Assembly (NCBI GenBank): GCA_003697105.1
Contig: RFFQ01000138.1
Location: forward strand, 1-59,166
Direction: 5' to 3'
DNA from: Gemmatimonadota bacterium
GTDB taxonomy: Bacteria; 4572-55; J002
Length of the DNA: 59,166 nucleotides
Under the pieces are notes generated by a model. That model saw nothing but the letters and a program-made list of their open reading frames with translations. It had not been told where the DNA came from and did not search any database. Positions 5,790 to 12,520 of the stretch are shown here, one piece after another (the first letter of the stretch is position 1; every line of letters starts with the position of its first letter). Made by a program: the position numbers and the translations under genes.

Positions 5790-7349
5790 ATGGCAAATTA
5801 CCCGTATCAAATCACCACGGAACTGTTTCAAATTCCCCATGAGGATACGTTTTTACTCTATTCCCCCCTCAAGCGGGTGGCATTTCGGGTCAACGAGGCG
5901 ACAATTGACCTGTTAGTGCGTATTCAACGGCAGGAAGAACTTCCACAAACGCCGTCGGTGCAAAAAACCCTCACGTTTTTTGAAGAGATTGGGATTCTGA
6001 ACGGTGAGCCAGACCAACGACCCGCTCATGCCGCCCCACCGGGGAGTGAGTTTCGTCCTACGACCGTAACGCTCTTTCTCACATCGGAATGTAATCTGGG
6101 TTGTGTGTACTGTTATGCCAATGCCGGTGTACAAAAGCTGTTTTTATCGTGGGATATCGCCAAAGCCGCCATTGATTGGGTAATTGAAAATGCACGAGCC
6201 ACGGAAAAAGATAAAATTTTGCTCGATTTTCATGGCGGGGGTGAACCAACCCTCTGTTGGGATGTACTCACGCGGAGTGTGGAATATGCCGAAGCGGAAA
6301 CCCAAAAGTATGGGCTAAAGCTGGATGTATCATTGGCATCGAACGTAATGATCAACCACAAACAGGCACAATGGATTGTAGAACATGTCCACTCCATGAC
6401 CGTTTCGATGGATGGAATGCAAGACATTCAGGACTTACAACGCCCAACAGTTGCCGGAAACGGCTCATTTGAGCGCGTGGTGAGCATCCTTAAGTTTTTT
6501 GATACCCATGATTTTAACTATGGCATCCGAGCAACCATCACCCATTACAATGTGGAGCGAATGACCGAAATGGTGGAATTCTTCGCGGCGACATTCAAAG
6601 CCACTCAATGGAATTTTGAACCCATGTTTGCCGCCGGTCGGGCGTTAGTCACCGGTTCCCCCGAACCGTTTGAAGAGGTGTTTATTCGGGAGTTTCGGCG
6701 GGCACGGGAACGCGCGAAAGAACTGGGACGAAATCTCGCCTATTCCGGGAATATGATCGAACGTATCTCCAACACGTTTTGTGGTGCGCCGGGCAAAAAT
6801 TTCTCGATCACGCCGGATGGCTATATCAGCGCCTGTCACGAAGTCAATAAAGCCACCGACCCCAAAGCCAATCTGTTTATTTATGGGGAGTACGACCCAG
6901 AAAAAAAGACATTTGTGATCCATACCGATAAACTGGATCGCTTGCGCACGTTTACGGTCGATCAGGTCGAATATTGTGACGGCTGCTTTGCCAAATGGCA
7001 CTGCGCTGGAGATTGTGTGGTTAAAGTGGTCAAAACAACGGGGGATTATCACAAACGCACTTCAGAATACCGCTGCCAAATGAACCGGGAATTGACTAAA
7101 GACCGCATTCTGGAACTGGCAAACCACCGGATTATGGTTTCTTTGGAAGAAGATGATGTGTTTTTGCTAAACCCCACAGCGGCTCAGGTACACCAATTGG
7201 TCGAACAAGGCTATCCTCGGGAGGCAATCATCGATGAAATGTGTTCCTTCTATCCAGAGATGTCCCGAGATGTGATCGAGGCAGATGTCGGTGAAATTTT
7301 AGCAGACCTTGCCGAAATTGGTATGTTATCGGATATTTCAACATTGTAA
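5790..7349 (+). CDS. Radical SAM/SPASM peptide maturase with C-terminal PqqD (RRE-like) domain
   Basis: 519 aa; ATG preceded by AAGGATA. The N-terminal ~75 residues resemble a small winged-helix/PqqD-like domain. The radical SAM core carries CNLGCVYC (C101, C105, C108), which binds the SAM-cleaving 4Fe-4S cluster. A SPASM region with extra iron-sulfur ligands follows: FCGAPGKNFSITPDG near residue 330 with ACHE after it, then YCDGCFAKWHCAGDC near 396-410 and YRC further on. The last ~75 residues (VFLLNPTAAQVHQL...DVGEILADLAEIGML) read as a PqqD domain, the RiPP recognition element that binds leader peptides. SPASM radical SAM proteins modify ribosomal peptides (thioether or C-C crosslinks) or activate sulfatases; the fused PqqD and the Cys-rich neighbour favour peptide modification. 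The exact chemistry cannot be read from sequence. Confidence 0.9.
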   Translation: MANYPYQITTELFQIPHEDTFLLYSPLKRVAFRVNEATIDLLVRIQRQEELPQTPSVQKTLTFFEEIGILNGEPDQRPAHAAPPGSEFRPTTVTLFLTSECNLGCVYCYANAGVQKLFLSWDIAKAAIDWVIENARATEKDKILLDFHGGGEPTLCWDVLTRSVEYAEAETQKYGLKLDVSLASNVMINHKQAQWIVEHVHSMTVSMDGMQDIQDLQRPTVAGNGSFERVVSILKFFDTHDFNYGIRATITHYNVERMTEMVEFFAATFKATQWNFEPMFAAGRALVTGSPEPFEEVFIREFRRARERAKELGRNLAYSGNMIERISNTFCGAPGKNFSITPDGYISACHEVNKATDPKANLFIYGEYDPEKKTFVIHTDKLDRLRTFTVDQVEYCDGCFAKWHCAGDCVVKVVKTTGDYHKRTSEYRCQMNRELTKDRILELANHRIMVSLEEDDVFLLNPTAAQVHQLVEQGYPREAIIDEMCSFYPEMSRDVIEADVGEILADLAEIGMLSDISTL

Positions 7350-7381
7350 CGGGCTGTAACCACCCTAAATTTGAGGTAGGC

Positions 7382-7972
7382 ATGTCTGATGAAAAACGAC
7401 CTGATGATCGGTTAGGTCGCGTTGAAAAATCACGCGCTCCAGCAGATCGTCCGCGGGATCGGCAAACCCCTGCCCCCCCGGAGCAAAAATCGCTAGAGCG
7501 TGACCCGCGCTTACATCGCCGTGAGGAGGAACGGCGCCCCCCCCGCCGGGAGTATATCCGCAAACGCGAACACGACACCAACCCTCGCCGGGATTATCTG
7601 CCGGATTGGCAGGATCAAGATGTCCCGCGTGACCCCAGACAACACCCGGCTTTGGAACGAAACGTAACCCCAGAGCCGTTGGAGCGGGAAGCAGAACCCC
7701 GTCCCGGAGGCCGCCCCCGTTACGAAAAACCAACGGTACGGCGGTATAGCGGTCCCAAACGCGGTGAAGGTGATATCCGGTGCAGTGTTTACTGTGCCAG
7801 TCACGCGGGTGATTGGCAGGTTCCGTGTCCGCCGCAGTGTTTGTCGGTGAACTTTTGCCCCACACAATGCGGATATTATGTTTCCTGCCCCTCTGATGCC
7901 CCGGGCGGCGGCTGCTCTCCACAGGTGATTTGTAGCCCGGATTCATGTAGCCCAGTTTGTGCCTCGAATTAG
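7382..7972 (+). CDS. Candidate RiPP precursor: charged Arg/Pro/Glu-rich leader and Cys-rich C-terminal core
   Basis: 196 aa; ATG with TTGAGGTAGG just upstream, 32 nt after the maturase stop. Residues 1-113 are low-complexity, strongly charged (Arg, Glu, Asp, Pro) and lack cysteine. Residues 114-122 read YEKPTVRRY, matching the YxxP motif that RRE/PqqD domains recognise in many leaders. From residue 134 to 193 there are 11 cysteines (C134, 138, 149, 153, 159, 163, 169, 178, 184, 189, 193) among small residues, Ser, Pro and Gly. I recognise no family. The layout, with all Cys in the C-terminal third beside a radical SAM/PqqD enzyme, is that of a thioether-type RiPP precursor. It is long for a precursor, so a Cys-rich structural or metal-binding substrate protein is the alternative. 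An antisense frame overlaps the whole gene but looks like a compositional shadow. Confidence 0.7.
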   Translation: MSDEKRPDDRLGRVEKSRAPADRPRDRQTPAPPEQKSLERDPRLHRREEERRPPRREYIRKREHDTNPRRDYLPDWQDQDVPRDPRQHPALERNVTPEPLEREAEPRPGGRPRYEKPTVRRYSGPKRGEGDIRCSVYCASHAGDWQVPCPPQCLSVNFCPTQCGYYVSCPSDAPGGGCSPQVICSPDSCSPVCASN

Positions 7973-7983
7973 TGGCAACCGTC

Positions 7984-8823
7984 ATGGTGAATCTGTATTT
8001 CCGGTTTTGGGATTTACAACTACGCCTCTGTTTGGGGGATAACCACCTGAAACCCTTTCTGGTGGCACTGTGGGGAATGTATCAAAAAACCGTGTTGCAG
8101 TCCGGTGTGACGACACTAACCTACCATCTCCAAACGGATTCATCCGACGGACGAACACGCTATGCTCTACAAGTTGAGGAGAATGAGCCTAGCCCGTGGG
8201 TCTCTTTTGATGATATTTTTGGGTTATTAAACCATCAATTAAGCTATAACTTGATTAATACCTGTGTGTCCCGGTGCTTGTTTCACAGTTCGGCGATAGT
8301 AACCCCGGACGAACAGGTGATCATGTGTGTGGGCGATGAAGAACAAGGGAAAACATCTCTCGTATTAGGGCTTGTGGAGCGAGGCTATCGCTTTTTTAGT
8401 GATGATATTGTCGCGTTAAACCCTGAAACCACTCAGGTAGAACCCCTTTTAGTCGGTTTGCCGGTGGAAAAGCACACTCTGGAACGATTTCCGTCATTTG
8501 CCGGTCTGAAAACGAAAATGCCGTTTCTCCAGTTGAATCACGGGATTCCCTGTGCCGAACCGGCGGCTTATCCGATTTCCCGTGTGATTTTTGTCGAACG
8601 GGCAATGGAAGGGGAAACGCAACTAAAACCGGTCTCCCTAGCGGAGGCTGCCGGGTTGTGGTTTCAAAATTGGCGCAACCATTATCTCTACCGGCAACCA
8701 CCGCTGGATGTGGTAGCCGGTCTCGCCCAACAGACCCCGGCATTTCGATTAACACAGGTTGATTTGAACCATGCCGTGGAGCAGATCGAACAACTCGAAA
8801 CCGGTAGGGGATTTTTGCCCTAA
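7984..8823 (+). CDS. HPr kinase/phosphorylase-like protein (HprK-related kinase)
   Basis: About 280 aa from ATG 7984; GTG 7972, overlapping the previous stop (TAGTG), is an equally possible start, and neither has a strong ribosome site. The protein shows a P-loop GDEEQGKTSL near residue 117, followed by RGYRFFSDDIVALN, which matches the HprK pattern in which a GxxxxGKS/T loop is followed by a conserved SDD segment. Canonical HprK phosphorylates HPr on Ser. Truncated HprK-like proteins instead occur in lasso-peptide clusters (peptide Ser phosphorylation) and in polysaccharide-linked cassettes with PqqD and nucleotidyltransferase proteins. Here it sits directly after the Cys-rich precursor and before a nucleotidyltransferase-family gene, so a peptide or carrier kinase is more likely than sugar regulation. 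Substrate is inference; the precursor is rich in Ser. Confidence 0.75.
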   Translation: MVNLYFRFWDLQLRLCLGDNHLKPFLVALWGMYQKTVLQSGVTTLTYHLQTDSSDGRTRYALQVEENEPSPWVSFDDIFGLLNHQLSYNLINTCVSRCLFHSSAIVTPDEQVIMCVGDEEQGKTSLVLGLVERGYRFFSDDIVALNPETTQVEPLLVGLPVEKHTLERFPSFAGLKTKMPFLQLNHGIPCAEPAAYPISRVIFVERAMEGETQLKPVSLAEAAGLWFQNWRNHYLYRQPPLDVVAGLAQQTPAFRLTQVDLNHAVEQIEQLETGRGFLP

Positions 8824-8829
8824 TAACTC

Positions 8830-10071
8830 TTGTTGGGGGTCTATACCCGTGATTTTTACCGCGCCTTTTCCGCCGGGGGTTGGATGTCTGGTCTTGCCCA
8901 AAACCCAGAATTAGCAACGATCTTTTTGCTGGCTCAACCCCAACGCCGTGAAGAGACCTATCAACAGCTTGTTCAATACGTACAAGTGGGATTAAATTGG
9001 CAGCGTTTTTTACGGCAGGTCGAGGTGTTACGGTATGCCGCATGGTGTGGTCATCAATTTGCAGGATATGGTCTGGAGAAAGCAATACCAGCAGACGTTT
9101 TGGCATATATTCGTGACCAATATGTCTGGAATGCCTACCGGGGCAAGGTGCTTCTGAATGCCGCAAACGCGGTGACGGACACGTTGAAATCCGCCGGGTT
9201 AGATGTTCTCTGGTTAAAAGGAATTGCCGCGGCTTCGTTATGTTACGGGGATATACGCCTCCGGCCCATGATGGATGTTGATCTCCTCATCCGGGAGGAC
9301 CAGATACATCTGGCACACGATCTGTTAATAAATGCCGGATGGGGGTATGCGGGAGCACCGCGCGACGTTTGGCACTATCGATCTTATCAGATACATACGT
9401 ATAATCATGCTTATCAACGGGTTGTGCCGGTGGATTCTGGAATGGAGCGGGTTTGGGTGGAACTCCACTGGCGTCCGGCAAGCCAACGGCTTGTCCCCCA
9501 ACTGCCTCCAGACGCATTTTGGGACGCAGTCGGTGTGGCTAAGGATACCCAGCACATGGAAACCCTTTCTCCCGAAAATTTTTTGATACATCTATGTATT
9601 CACCAAGCAAAATCAAATTTTCGCGCGCACTTGAGCCGTTTAGACCTCGCACTGCTGGTGGATCAATATGTCATGGATTGGGATCAAGTTGCCCGCAAAG
9701 CAGAAAAATGGGGATTACAACGGATGGTCACCGCCGCATTAACAGATGTGCAAGTGGTATTCGGAAGTAAGATTCCGCCGATCGACCAATCAGCGAGGCT
9801 ATCGCTTGGGGTGAGATACCTCCAGCAACAAGGACGGAAAGCCACTTACACGTTGTTAGATCGATTTGACATTACCCCCTACCAATTGCTCTTTTTGGAG
9901 AGATGGTCAGACCGATTTCGGTTTTTGGGGTCCGTGTTGTTTTACCCCAATTCACATGACCTAAAGCGATGGGCATTATCCCCCTCAACTCAAATATTAT
10001 ATATGATCATAAAACCGGTTCGTTTATGTGTTACGCTTTTCGTGAGGATTTTTAGCTTTGTATTTCGGTAA
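8830..10071 (+). CDS. Nucleotidyltransferase-family protein (NTP_transf_5 type)
   Basis: 413 aa from a TTG start six nt after the kinase stop; no ATG is available before residue 19, so the start is uncertain. The recognisable core is LDVLWLKGIAAASLCYGD followed by RPMMDVDLLI (around residues 120-152), matching the uncharacterised nucleotidyltransferase family with its K-G...DxD pattern. Further on, ELHWR and NFLIHLCIHQ are also typical of this family. These proteins accompany lasso-peptide and HprK/PqqD cassettes and are thought to transfer a nucleotide or modify a peptide or sugar, but no general function is established. It overlaps the tyrosine autokinase gene by 14 nt, implying translational coupling. 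The grouping with PqqD and HprK-like proteins mirrors known cassettes near exopolysaccharide genes. Confidence 0.75.
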   Translation: MLGVYTRDFYRAFSAGGWMSGLAQNPELATIFLLAQPQRREETYQQLVQYVQVGLNWQRFLRQVEVLRYAAWCGHQFAGYGLEKAIPADVLAYIRDQYVWNAYRGKVLLNAANAVTDTLKSAGLDVLWLKGIAAASLCYGDIRLRPMMDVDLLIREDQIHLAHDLLINAGWGYAGAPRDVWHYRSYQIHTYNHAYQRVVPVDSGMERVWVELHWRPASQRLVPQLPPDAFWDAVGVAKDTQHMETLSPENFLIHLCIHQAKSNFRAHLSRLDLALLVDQYVMDWDQVARKAEKWGLQRMVTAALTDVQVVFGSKIPPIDQSARLSLGVRYLQQQGRKATYTLLDRFDITPYQLLFLERWSDRFRFLGSVLFYPNSHDLKRWALSPSTQILYMIIKPVRLCVTLFVRIFSFVFR

Positions 10072-12520
10072 TGGTAAGAATTATCCAGTAGAAGTCACAA
10101 CATCGTCATATCTTGAGGCGGATTTTGATGTCCGCAAATATGTACGGATGTTGTGGCGACGGCGGTACATCGTATTGCTGTTATTTGTGCTTATTTTTGG
10201 GTTTAGTACTTATCGTGCACTAACCCAAAAAGTAACACCGGTGTATCGATCGACGGTTTATCTCGAAGTGGATGAAAAAGAGACGAATATCCGTCTTTTG
10301 CCGCAGTTCAGTTCGGTGCGGCAACAGTCCATTTATTGGGGGAGTCCGGAAGGAAAAATTATTGCGGAGGTGTTGAGTACTTCTGTCATTGAAGAAGTCG
10401 TTCAAATGCTGGATTTGGATAAAGCCGTGCATTCCATCTCGCCCAATTTATCCTTTTCGATGACGAATATTCAGAGCCACAATGCCCCGTTGGGGACCTA
10501 TCGCGTCCATATTTTAGATAATCAGCATTATGTGGTTTACGATACCGCCAATCGCGAACTGGGGCGAGGCATCAGCGGGGTACCCTTTCAGCATGAATTT
10601 TTTGAGTTTACCATTTCCAACATTGAGGGACCGCCCCAAAGTGAATTTTATTTTACGTTGTACCCGCTTCAGCGAGCGGTCAATTCGGTGAGAGCCGCCA
10701 CCCATGCCCAAGCAACAACACGGGCGGCAATTCAGGATAATGTTGCTGGCGGAGGAATCGCCGGAGCCGCCAGTGCCAAGCGCTCCCGTAAAGATGCGGC
10801 GATTCAGGATGCGGGCATTGTTCAAGTGGATGTGTATTGGCAAGACCCCGAAACGGCTACCCAAATCGCCAATGCTCTGGCAGACGTGATCCGGCATCGC
10901 GAACTCGAAGATAAACGGTTAGAACATACCAAAACTCGGGAATATATCGAACGTCAGTTGAACACTTATACCCAAAAATTGAAGGCGTCAGAAGAAGCAC
11001 TCCAGACCTATAAAGAGCAAAATCGAATCTATGAATTGGATGCAATTGCTCGGGATGTCACCTATAAAGTGTTTGATATTGAAGCTGAAATCAGCCAAAT
11101 TCAAGCCGAACGAGAACGAATTAAGCTCTTTCGGGAAAAAGTTACCAGTGGCTTACAACCGGAAGATTATTTGTTGATTAGTGCGATCCCATTTCAAGAT
11201 GAGGAAGGTTACGGATATTGGGATGTACTCAGCCAATTGACCTCGCAATTGATGGAGCTTGAAATCCAACTTCCGCTAAAGTTAGAGGAAATGACCGAAA
11301 ACCATCCCGACATTATCGCCTTAAAAAATCAGATCCAACAAGTTCGGTTGCGATTGCAACAGCAAGTTGATGCGCGGCTTACGATGCTGGATTCCCGCGA
11401 AGAAAGCCTCCGGCTACAACTGTTGCCGTACCAACAGCAACTGGAAACCTTTCCGTTGAAAGAGGTTGAACTCGCCCGGTTGGAACGCGAATTTCGACTC
11501 AATGAGGAGATTTATTCCCTCCTCACCCGCCAGCATGAACAAACCCGGCTGGCAGAAGCCGCGATTGTTAATGATATTCAGGTGTTAGATTATGCCAGTA
11601 TCCCAACCGCCCCGATTGGTGGGGGACCCAATCGCCAAAAAGCCATTTTACTGGGGGCACTATTGGGGATCGGTGTGGGGTTAGGGGTCGCATTTCTCCT
11701 GGAATTTCTGGATAATACCATCCGTGAAACGGATGAGATTGAACGCCACATCCAATTACCGGTTTACGGTATGATCCCCCAAATAGAATCTATCAAAAAT
11801 GGCCGGCGGACTCATAAAGCAAAAGCAAGATTTGAAACACTGGTTACGCATCTAGCACCAAAATCGATACCGTCTGAAGCGTTCCGATCACTTCGAACGA
11901 ATATTCAATTTTTTGATCTGTCACGCCAGTCCGAAGCAATTTTGATCACCAGTGCCGTTTCAGAAGAGGGAAAATCCACAACGTGTGCTAATTTAGCAAT
12001 TACTACCGCTCAAGTGGGCCGGAAAACGCTTTTAATTGATGGAGACCTGCGTAAACCGGTTATTCATCACCTCTTTGAGGCACCCAGTGAACCCGGTCTG
12101 ACCGATGTCTTATTGGGCCGATACACATGGCAGGAGGTCATTCATTCTACCTCCGTGCCGGGCTTAGATATTATATGTTCCGGGACCCAGCCACCAAACC
12201 CTTCCGAATTGCTGAGTTCACCAGAATTGAAATCCCTGATTACCACCCTTAAAGAGCACTATGATATGATCTTATTCGATTCACCACCGGTAATACCGGT
12301 TGCGGATAGTGTTGCGTTGAGTACCAATGTGGATGGGGTATTATTAGTGGTATCCGCGGGTAAAACAGACCGTCATGCGCTCCAGCGCACACGTGATTTA
12401 TTGCACAATGTAAATGCCCGGATTATGGGAGCTGTGTTGAATAATGTTCGCATCAACGAGATATATGGTTATCAAAAACATTACTATTACTACGACACGA
12501 AAAAACCGGTGAAGGTATAA
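10058..12520 (+). CDS. Wzz/BY-kinase fusion, polysaccharide biosynthesis tyrosine autokinase
   Basis: 820 aa, TTG start overlapping the previous gene. It has an N-terminal Wzz chain-length domain with a first membrane segment near residues 33-50 (YIVLLLFVLIFGFSTY), a long periplasmic coiled-coil region (about 270-500), and a second membrane segment near 526-548 (ILLGALLGIGVGLGV). The cytoplasmic kinase follows with Walker A SAVSEEGKSTT, Walker A' LLIDGDLRKP and Walker B DMILFDSPPV. It ends in a tyrosine cluster (YGYQKHYYYYD), the autophosphorylation tail of BY-kinases. Such proteins control polymerisation and export of surface polysaccharide. No glycosyltransferases, flippase or polymerase lie nearby, so in this operon it may serve the peptide/surface system or act on a distant polysaccharide locus. 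A Gly/Ala-rich insertion with basic residues near 215-245 is unusual. Confidence 0.88.
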   Translation: MYFGNGKNYPVEVTTSSYLEADFDVRKYVRMLWRRRYIVLLLFVLIFGFSTYRALTQKVTPVYRSTVYLEVDEKETNIRLLPQFSSVRQQSIYWGSPEGKIIAEVLSTSVIEEVVQMLDLDKAVHSISPNLSFSMTNIQSHNAPLGTYRVHILDNQHYVVYDTANRELGRGISGVPFQHEFFEFTISNIEGPPQSEFYFTLYPLQRAVNSVRAATHAQATTRAAIQDNVAGGGIAGAASAKRSRKDAAIQDAGIVQVDVYWQDPETATQIANALADVIRHRELEDKRLEHTKTREYIERQLNTYTQKLKASEEALQTYKEQNRIYELDAIARDVTYKVFDIEAEISQIQAERERIKLFREKVTSGLQPEDYLLISAIPFQDEEGYGYWDVLSQLTSQLMELEIQLPLKLEEMTENHPDIIALKNQIQQVRLRLQQQVDARLTMLDSREESLRLQLLPYQQQLETFPLKEVELARLEREFRLNEEIYSLLTRQHEQTRLAEAAIVNDIQVLDYASIPTAPIGGGPNRQKAILLGALLGIGVGLGVAFLLEFLDNTIRETDEIERHIQLPVYGMIPQIESIKNGRRTHKAKARFETLVTHLAPKSIPSEAFRSLRTNIQFFDLSRQSEAILITSAVSEEGKSTTCANLAITTAQVGRKTLLIDGDLRKPVIHHLFEAPSEPGLTDVLLGRYTWQEVIHSTSVPGLDIICSGTQPPNPSELLSSPELKSLITTLKEHYDMILFDSPPVIPVADSVALSTNVDGVLLVVSAGKTDRHALQRTRDLLHNVNARIMGAVLNNVRINEIYGYQKHYYYYDTKKPVKV

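Follow-up and report, generated by a model that had tools for sequence, protein, structure and literature searches.

A candidate RiPP-type maturation cassette with a PqqD-fused radical SAM enzyme in an exopolysaccharide export operon of a Gemmatimonadota bacterium

Which kind of product is made where a radical S-adenosylmethionine (SAM) enzyme of the SPASM type, carrying a C-terminal PqqD-like domain, is encoded next to a protein with a cysteine-rich tail, an HprK-like kinase and a nucleotidyltransferase? The question is raised by contig RFFQ01000138.1 (positions 1 to 59,166 of the forward strand) of the Gemmatimonadota bacterium assembly GCA_003697105.1; these 59,166 nucleotides are referred to below as the window. 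An earlier inspection of the letters (the sequence-only reading) had proposed a new class of peptides, both crosslinked and phosphorylated or nucleotidylated. The locus is an operon for exopolysaccharide export. It encodes three PqqD domains, of which one is part of the radical SAM enzyme (the maturase), and the genes in question form, on balance, a maturation cassette of the type known for ribosomally synthesized and post-translationally modified peptides (RiPPs) built into this operon. A recognition and tailoring module of the linear polyphosphorylated peptide (LPP) and lasso peptide type is here joined to a ranthipeptide-like maturase. With somewhat more confidence than doubt, the product is taken to be a cysteine-rich peptide that is guided by a RiPP recognition element (RRE), cross-linked by the maturase, phosphorylated and probably glycosylated, and that either accompanies surface polysaccharide on export or is attached to it.

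The candidate precursor consists of a cysteine-free, charged and proline-rich leader of 133 residues (residues 1-113 being highly charged and proline-rich), followed by a tail with cysteines at positions 134, 138, 149, 153, 159, 163, 169, 178, 184, 189 and 193. Charged residues occur from the very N-terminus and no signal peptide can be recognised; the protein ends in ...CSPVCASN, whose serines are available as candidate acceptors. This putative leader-plus-core architecture fits the RiPP pattern; no homologue was found in the genomes searched. To judge from its sequence, the 196-aa open reading frame (ORF) is a real gene: its synonymous codons are genome-like (score 0.166, compared to 0.161 for the maturase), and a GAGGT ribosome-binding site precedes its ATG. 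The overall codon score of the precursor is low, mainly in the cysteine-rich half. An antisense ORF of 206 aa over the same region scored -0.046 and was rejected on codon usage. The ORF coordinates and lengths, the YEKP motif at residues 114-117 and the 11 cysteines between residues 134 and 193, all reported by the sequence-only reading, were correct on recheck.

Regarding the maturase (519 aa), profile searches against Pfam and NCBIfam, the source of all domain scores, returned Radical_SAM (1.8e-9), a C-terminal PqqD domain (Table 1) and SPASM (0.014); the weak SPASM score is offset because the seven SPASM cysteines are all present and invariant. The reported SPASM enzyme with a C-terminal PqqD-like domain is thus borne out. 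The AlphaFold2 model (pTM 0.80; one plasmid-record protein row was left out of the underlying alignment) has an N-terminal, RRE-like domain of three strands and two helices and three C-terminal PqqD helices, with low confidence at residues 447-461, where the PqqD strands are expected. CteB (5why/5wgg) is the best solved match both in sequence and in fold. The best NCBIfam scores were those of SCIFF, nif11-like and PapB maturases (129 bits each), every score being well under its curated cut-off; a sulfatase-maturase identity (72 bits) was rejected against these peptide maturases. Sequence and predicted structure alike identify the protein as a SPASM radical SAM enzyme of the CteB type.

With the SCIFF/ranthipeptide systems (CteB, PapB), its best sequence and structure matches, the maturase shares the SPASM fold with 3 + 7 cluster cysteines, the N-terminal RRE-like fold and a cysteine-rich partner. 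It differs in that its 129 bits do not reach the cut-offs of 425 and 340 (TIGR03974, NF047865), in the additional C-terminal PqqD domain, in the exopolysaccharide operon with a kinase, and in the far longer leader of the precursor, for which NCBIfam indicated no SCIFF likeness. The SynChlorMet cassette is another case in which radical SAM/SPASM, PqqD-like and HprK-like proteins occur together (TIGR04248 ScmD, TIGR04249 ScmC, TIGR04250 ScmE). One L097 PqqD protein matches ScmD best (34 bits, cut-off 100) and ScmE gave the maturase 47 bits (cut-off 400), so that neither cut-off was reached, and ScmC was not listed for the kinase; the present locus has one fused maturase instead, plus NTP_transf_5, Wza and Wzc.

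As to substrate recognition, YEKPTV is the sole match to [Y/W]xxPx[LVIFA] in the precursor and begins 20 residues ahead of the first cysteine. RREs of lasso and LPP systems bind this motif (PMC13381572). The PqqD domain of the maturase, searched alone, has the lasso RRE TbiB1 as its best match in the PDB (E 0.0026). The proposal that the YxxP element is a binding site for an RRE is supported by both observations, and the cysteine-rich protein is most likely the substrate of the PqqD-assisted maturase beside it.

The setting of these genes in a polysaccharide-export operon had been missed by the sequence-only reading: a wzc-like gene lies directly downstream of the nucleotidyltransferase gene, and a wza-type gene and two pqqD genes lie past the contig end. 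The window start is the end of contig C14, and the same 99 bases, of which no other copy exists anywhere in the genome, are found at the end of contig C48. Joining C48 and C14 yields one unbroken gene for a secreted protein of 2235 aa, the first 1032 bases of which are on C48. Upstream on C48, in the same direction, are the genes for two PqqD proteins (PF05402, 5e-13 and 3e-15) and for a Wza-type export protein (PF02563, 6e-25). The joined order is wza, pqqD, pqqD, large secreted protein, radical SAM-PqqD, cysteine-rich precursor, hprK-like, NTP_transf_5 and wzc. Within the window, the genes from the maturase to wzc are on the forward strand with hardly any gaps; the precursor stop overlaps, in TAGTG, a GTG that may be the start codon of the kinase gene, and the nucleotidyltransferase ORF overlaps the wzc ORF. 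The gene for the secreted protein ends 14 bases upstream of the maturase gene and is therefore probably part of the same operon. The Wzc-like protein also has Pfam matches to Wzz, GNVR and AAA_31. Neither a macrolactam cyclase nor a B2 protease was found among the ORFs of the joined operon, in line with the earlier statement that this is not a lasso cluster. The features are listed in Table 1.

Table 1. Features of the locus within the window
Feature	Position	Strand	Remarks
Large secreted protein, 3' part of 2235 aa	1..5775	+	P-domains, Laminin_G_3, beta-helix, FlgD-Ig/Por_Secre sorting tail
SPASM radical SAM maturase with fused C-terminal PqqD/RRE, 519 aa	5790..7349	+	
N-terminal RRE-like domain (predicted), residues 13-66	5826..5987	+	beta-beta-beta-alpha-alpha; AlphaFold2, block pLDDT 84-93
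Radical SAM CxxxCxxC motif, C101/C105/C108	6090..6113	+	invariant in 23-row alignment
SPASM auxiliary-cluster cysteines 331, 349, 396, 399, 405, 409, 429	6780..7076	+	invariant in 23-row alignment
C-terminal PqqD/RRE domain, residues 448-513	7131..7328	+	PF05402, E 3.1e-9
Cysteine-rich candidate precursor, 196 aa	7382..7972	+	no Pfam or NCBIfam family
YEKPTV, residues 114-119 (YEKP 114-117)	7721..7738	+	fits [Y/W]xxPx[LVIFA]
Cysteine-rich core, residues 134-193	7781..7960	+	11 Cys
HprK-like kinase	7957..8823	+	TIGR04352 HprK_rel_A, E 3.2e-12; possible start GTG 7972
NTP_transf_5 nucleotidyltransferase (PsmN/LppN-like)	8830..10071	+	PF14907, E 2e-44
Wzc-like polysaccharide co-polymerase with BY-kinase domain	10058..12520	+	TIGR01007, 195.6 bits (cut-off 108)

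The kinase (Pfam Hpr_kinase_C, 5.9e-4) keeps H110, GxxxxGKT at 126-133 and D149, and the NTP_transf_5 protein keeps K130, G131, R145, D149, D151, H213 and D272; the most conserved catalytic-looking residues of both protein sets are thus all retained. The suggestion that the two act as tailoring enzymes is supported. The kinase of paeninodin-type lasso clusters places a phosphate on the C-terminal serine, and in pseudomycoidin PsmN is required for one or two hexoses on that phosphate (PMC8498205, PMC9266682). In LPP (Paenibacillus alginolyticus lpp, 2026) the trio of kinase, NTP transferase and RRE, together with SpI and MsbA, produces linear peptides in polyphosphorylated form, and the clusters frequently lie in capsule loci (PMC13381572). 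Experimental support exists for the kinase and the sugar-adding roles in lasso systems and for the kinase role also in LPP. The present operon shares with the paeninodin/pseudomycoidin lasso clusters the PqqD-type (B1-like) RRE, the HprK-like K, the nucleotidyltransferase N and the [Y/W]xxPx[LVIFA] leader, and has a cysteine-rich core and a radical SAM enzyme instead of the cyclase and B2. With LPP it shares a discrete RRE, the HprK-like kinase, the NTP transferase, a YxxPxV precursor motif and the capsular/exopolysaccharide setting; it lacks the SpI peptidase and the MsbA-like transporter and adds the maturase with its fused RRE and the 11-cysteine core. From the LPP motif YxxPxVLxHQxIxFETxxS, the precursor has only the YxxPxV part (YEKPTVRRYSGPKR), whereas HQxIxFETxxS is absent.

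NTP_transf_5 proteins are common (81 of 290 genomes). Forty of their loci included 22 with an HprK-like gene, 21 with PqqD and 19 with both, compared to one HprK and six PqqD matches in 80 loci centred on radical SAM genes. PqqD, HprK and NTP_transf_5 thus form a widespread known module whose parts are not new, and proposing a new class of peptides went too far, the module being present in 19/40 loci, in lasso clusters and in LPP; what stands is a combination that was met in no other genome searched. The partners of the module vary: by eye, they resemble lasso-type asparagine synthase and B2 genes in L159 and are radical SAM enzymes in L164 and L166, and in L193 they are a signal peptidase, an MsbA-like ABC protein, Wza and Wzc. 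A plasmid search was empty for the kinase and gave one distant archaeal match only for the nucleotidyltransferase. Locus L193 (7358-14979), in a genome assembled as a single contig, encodes an archaeal-type signal peptidase, PqqD, NTP_transf_5, MsbA-like ABC, HprK-like, Wza and Wzc proteins in a row; this compact LPP-like locus is well suited for comparison with regard to the polysaccharide link. A PqqD gene of another kind of neighbourhood (L098, G000 contig C9, 1195-3905; PF05402 2.6e-14) precedes genes for an ATP-grasp protein and a PLP-dependent decarboxylase. The N-terminus of the decarboxylase (MKKIYEKPVFIKLESG) carries the RRE motif as YxxPx[F]; the enzyme may be RRE-tagged or bear a fused leader.

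L193 has its module with Wza and Wzc and no maturase of the present type, and HprK and NTP_transf_5 do not lie near most relatives of the maturase. Both facts would fit two systems side by side, namely a pair of radical SAM-PqqD and cysteine-rich protein, and an LPP-like set of two PqqD proteins, HprK, NTP_transf_5 and Wza/Wzc with an unrecognised precursor; in a single system the two free PqqD proteins would be superfluous. Such an arrangement is considered unlikely, and is the alternative that survives best. Against it, the substrate gene sits between maturase and kinase genes and may overlap hprK in TAGTG, no short protein with YxxPx[LVIFA] other than the cysteine-rich one was recognised in the operon, and one member of the maturase family (L025) independently combines HprK and PqqD with this type of maturase.

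Relatives of the maturase were sought in genome contigs and in more than 1,300 sampled whole genomes, which yielded about 40 relatives with 30-40% identity across residues 6-445 (Verrucomicrobiota, Nitrospirota, Acidobacteriota, Chloroflexota, Actinomycetota, Bacteroidota, Cyanobacteriota and others). A frame with at least 8 closely spaced cysteines within 60 residues, a rule applied uniformly and to both strands, adjoins the maturase in 28 of the 40 family loci, compared to 10/50 loci of other radical SAM enzymes and 5/40 NTP_transf_5 loci; some of these matches are not genes, which affects the controls equally. Some partners are short peptides (e.g., L013, L014, L021 and L029) that share the segment [KR]P[GS][LM][KE][TSA][FY]F before the cysteine region, a segment missing from the present precursor. 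Other partners (L017, L028, L035, L049) are large proteins that combine a Tat-like twin-arginine leader with WD40-like repeats and end in CGSPIPPGAVCTCNCVPG-like tails. The family (L013-L040/L049; 30-39% identity across residues 6-445) differs from the present locus in having short leaders with [KR]PG[LM][KE]T[FY]F in place of YEKPTV and no C-terminal PqqD fusion; its adjacent protein is a cysteine-rich peptide or a twin-arginine/WD40-like protein with a CxC tail, and a PqqD-like protein is sometimes adjacent. Candidate free PqqD genes adjoin the maturase in L014, L023, L032 and L034 (PF05402, 21-24 bits), only L023 exceeding the cut-off of 23.4; a clear PqqD (51 bits) next to the maturase together with an HprK-like gene nearby was seen in L025 only. 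In a tree, the maturase falls at an unsupported fork. No publication on the family was found in the literature search, and none of three scanned members reached an NCBIfam equivalog.

Many relatives thus carry the cysteine-rich tail on a large twin-arginine/WD40-like protein rather than on a short peptide, and at the present locus a secreted protein of 2235 aa is encoded immediately upstream of the maturase. The 196-aa protein might accordingly be a structural or metal-binding surface protein (a disulfide-bonded envelope or matrix component), with the maturase acting on, e.g., the large secreted protein. This is improbable, as cysteine-rich partners, short peptides included, recur near the maturase family far above background, and the 196-aa protein has an RRE motif and lacks a recognisable signal peptide. 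A different radical SAM linkage (C-C cyclophane, epimerisation) or a sulfatase-type maturase is very improbable: cyclophane and sulfatase maturases are among the weaker NCBIfam matches (all models being far below cut-offs), whereas the thioether-forming SCIFF/PapB models lead the sulfatase model (129 against 72 bits), CteB ranks first in sequence and structure, and the partners are cysteine-rich. The sequence-only reading had named sulfatase activation with no peptide partner as a finding that would speak against it; this did not come true, since the relatives adjoin cysteine-rich partners and sulfatase maturases score weaker than peptide maturases.

The pairing of the twin-arginine/WD40-like proteins with the maturase family is widespread (L017 8320-9732, L028 8329-9672, L030 11988-13442, L035 3213-4568, L049 1425-2828, and L199); their cysteine-rich C-terminal tail reads CGSPIPPGAVCTCNCVPG...CTCNQICTCVPV, and those scanned belong to no NCBIfam family at cut-off. 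Cysteine-rich proteins with CxCE.KPGxGC-like repeats are encoded upstream of maturase relatives in L104 (~855) and L106 (~550 and ~1028); they have a similar downstream block, DILEVVSNPVFREVV.G.DI, and L106 contains two copies of these proteins. Behind a distant maturase relative on Edwardsiella tarda plasmid pEtSC002-4 (L012, 3992-7433) come a peptide of 59 aa with CCRGGGVSMGGGLGGGGRW at its end, an ABC transporter and an S8 peptidase; this set lies beside a colicin operon and looks bacteriocin-type.

For the favoured cross-linked and phosphorylated peptide, the following route is proposed. YEKPTV would bind a PqqD/RRE, which may be the maturase's own domain or either of the free PqqD proteins. 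The CteB-like enzyme would then abstract hydrogen atoms and link cysteines of the tail with residues close by, thioethers being the most likely bonds. The kinase may phosphorylate one of the core serines, with the NTP_transf_5 protein perhaps adding a sugar to the phosphate, as in pseudomycoidin; by this precedent, the end product is likely phosphorylated and glycosylated rather than nucleotidylated as previously suggested. As neither a leader peptidase nor a transporter dedicated to the peptide was found, the long leader may stay in place or be removed by a general protease. The product would leave with, or decorate, the polysaccharide moved by Wzc and Wza.

Several observations weigh against this reading, the main weakness being a precursor without homologues. 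No precursor homologue was found in the genomes searched, so that conservation of the cysteine spacing and of YxxP is not demonstrable; the other one of two genomes of the source phylum has neither maturase nor precursor, and the full combination of cysteine-rich protein, maturase, kinase, nucleotidyltransferase and polysaccharide export occurs in no other genome searched. Alignment of the precursor with the substrates of the relatives reflects compositional similarity only: homology to their cysteine-rich peptides was rejected, as the best BLAST hit (E 6e-4) was obtained without composition correction and covers the cysteine-rich tail only, and the likeness of MSDEKRPDDR to MSDKPDDRP at the N-terminus of the L013 peptide is suggestive and too short for use. 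A [YW]xxPx[LVIFA] match arises by chance in 9% of shuffled leaders; the motif alone is therefore weak evidence, and the case rests on its co-occurrence with the three PqqD domains of the operon. The leader of some 130 residues is unusual, as was pointed out before. None of the relatives showed the PqqD fusion, no alignment extending beyond residue 472 (386 relatives, then 246, 297 and 388 genomes from the phyla of the Nitrospirae locus L014, the Acidobacteria locus L022 and the Verrucomicrobiota locus L013), and thus appears so far to be peculiar to the present locus. Neither an SpI- or B2-type peptidase nor an MsbA-like exporter is among the operon ORFs from wza to wzc. The contig join is inferred from a single 99-base overlap. 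Finally, the kinase and the nucleotidyltransferase could act on something other than the cysteine-rich peptide.

For LPP, a case of the PqqD/HprK/NTP_transf_5 module in polysaccharide loci, the biological roles are stated as unknown and a link to biofilms as untested (PMC13381572). The presence of this module in one operon with an exporter (Wza, Wzc), a radical SAM maturase and a cysteine-rich substrate offers a candidate for a peptide that travels with polysaccharide. A bolder version, in which the cross-linked and phosphoglycosylated peptide is covalently joined to the exported exopolysaccharide as a protein anchor or primer in one pathway via Wzc/Wza, is highly doubtful. If the preferred reading is true, radical SAM cross-linking extends to a kinase-tailored precursor; the locus also points to a broad maturase family pairing with cysteine-rich tails on WD40-like proteins with twin-arginine leaders.

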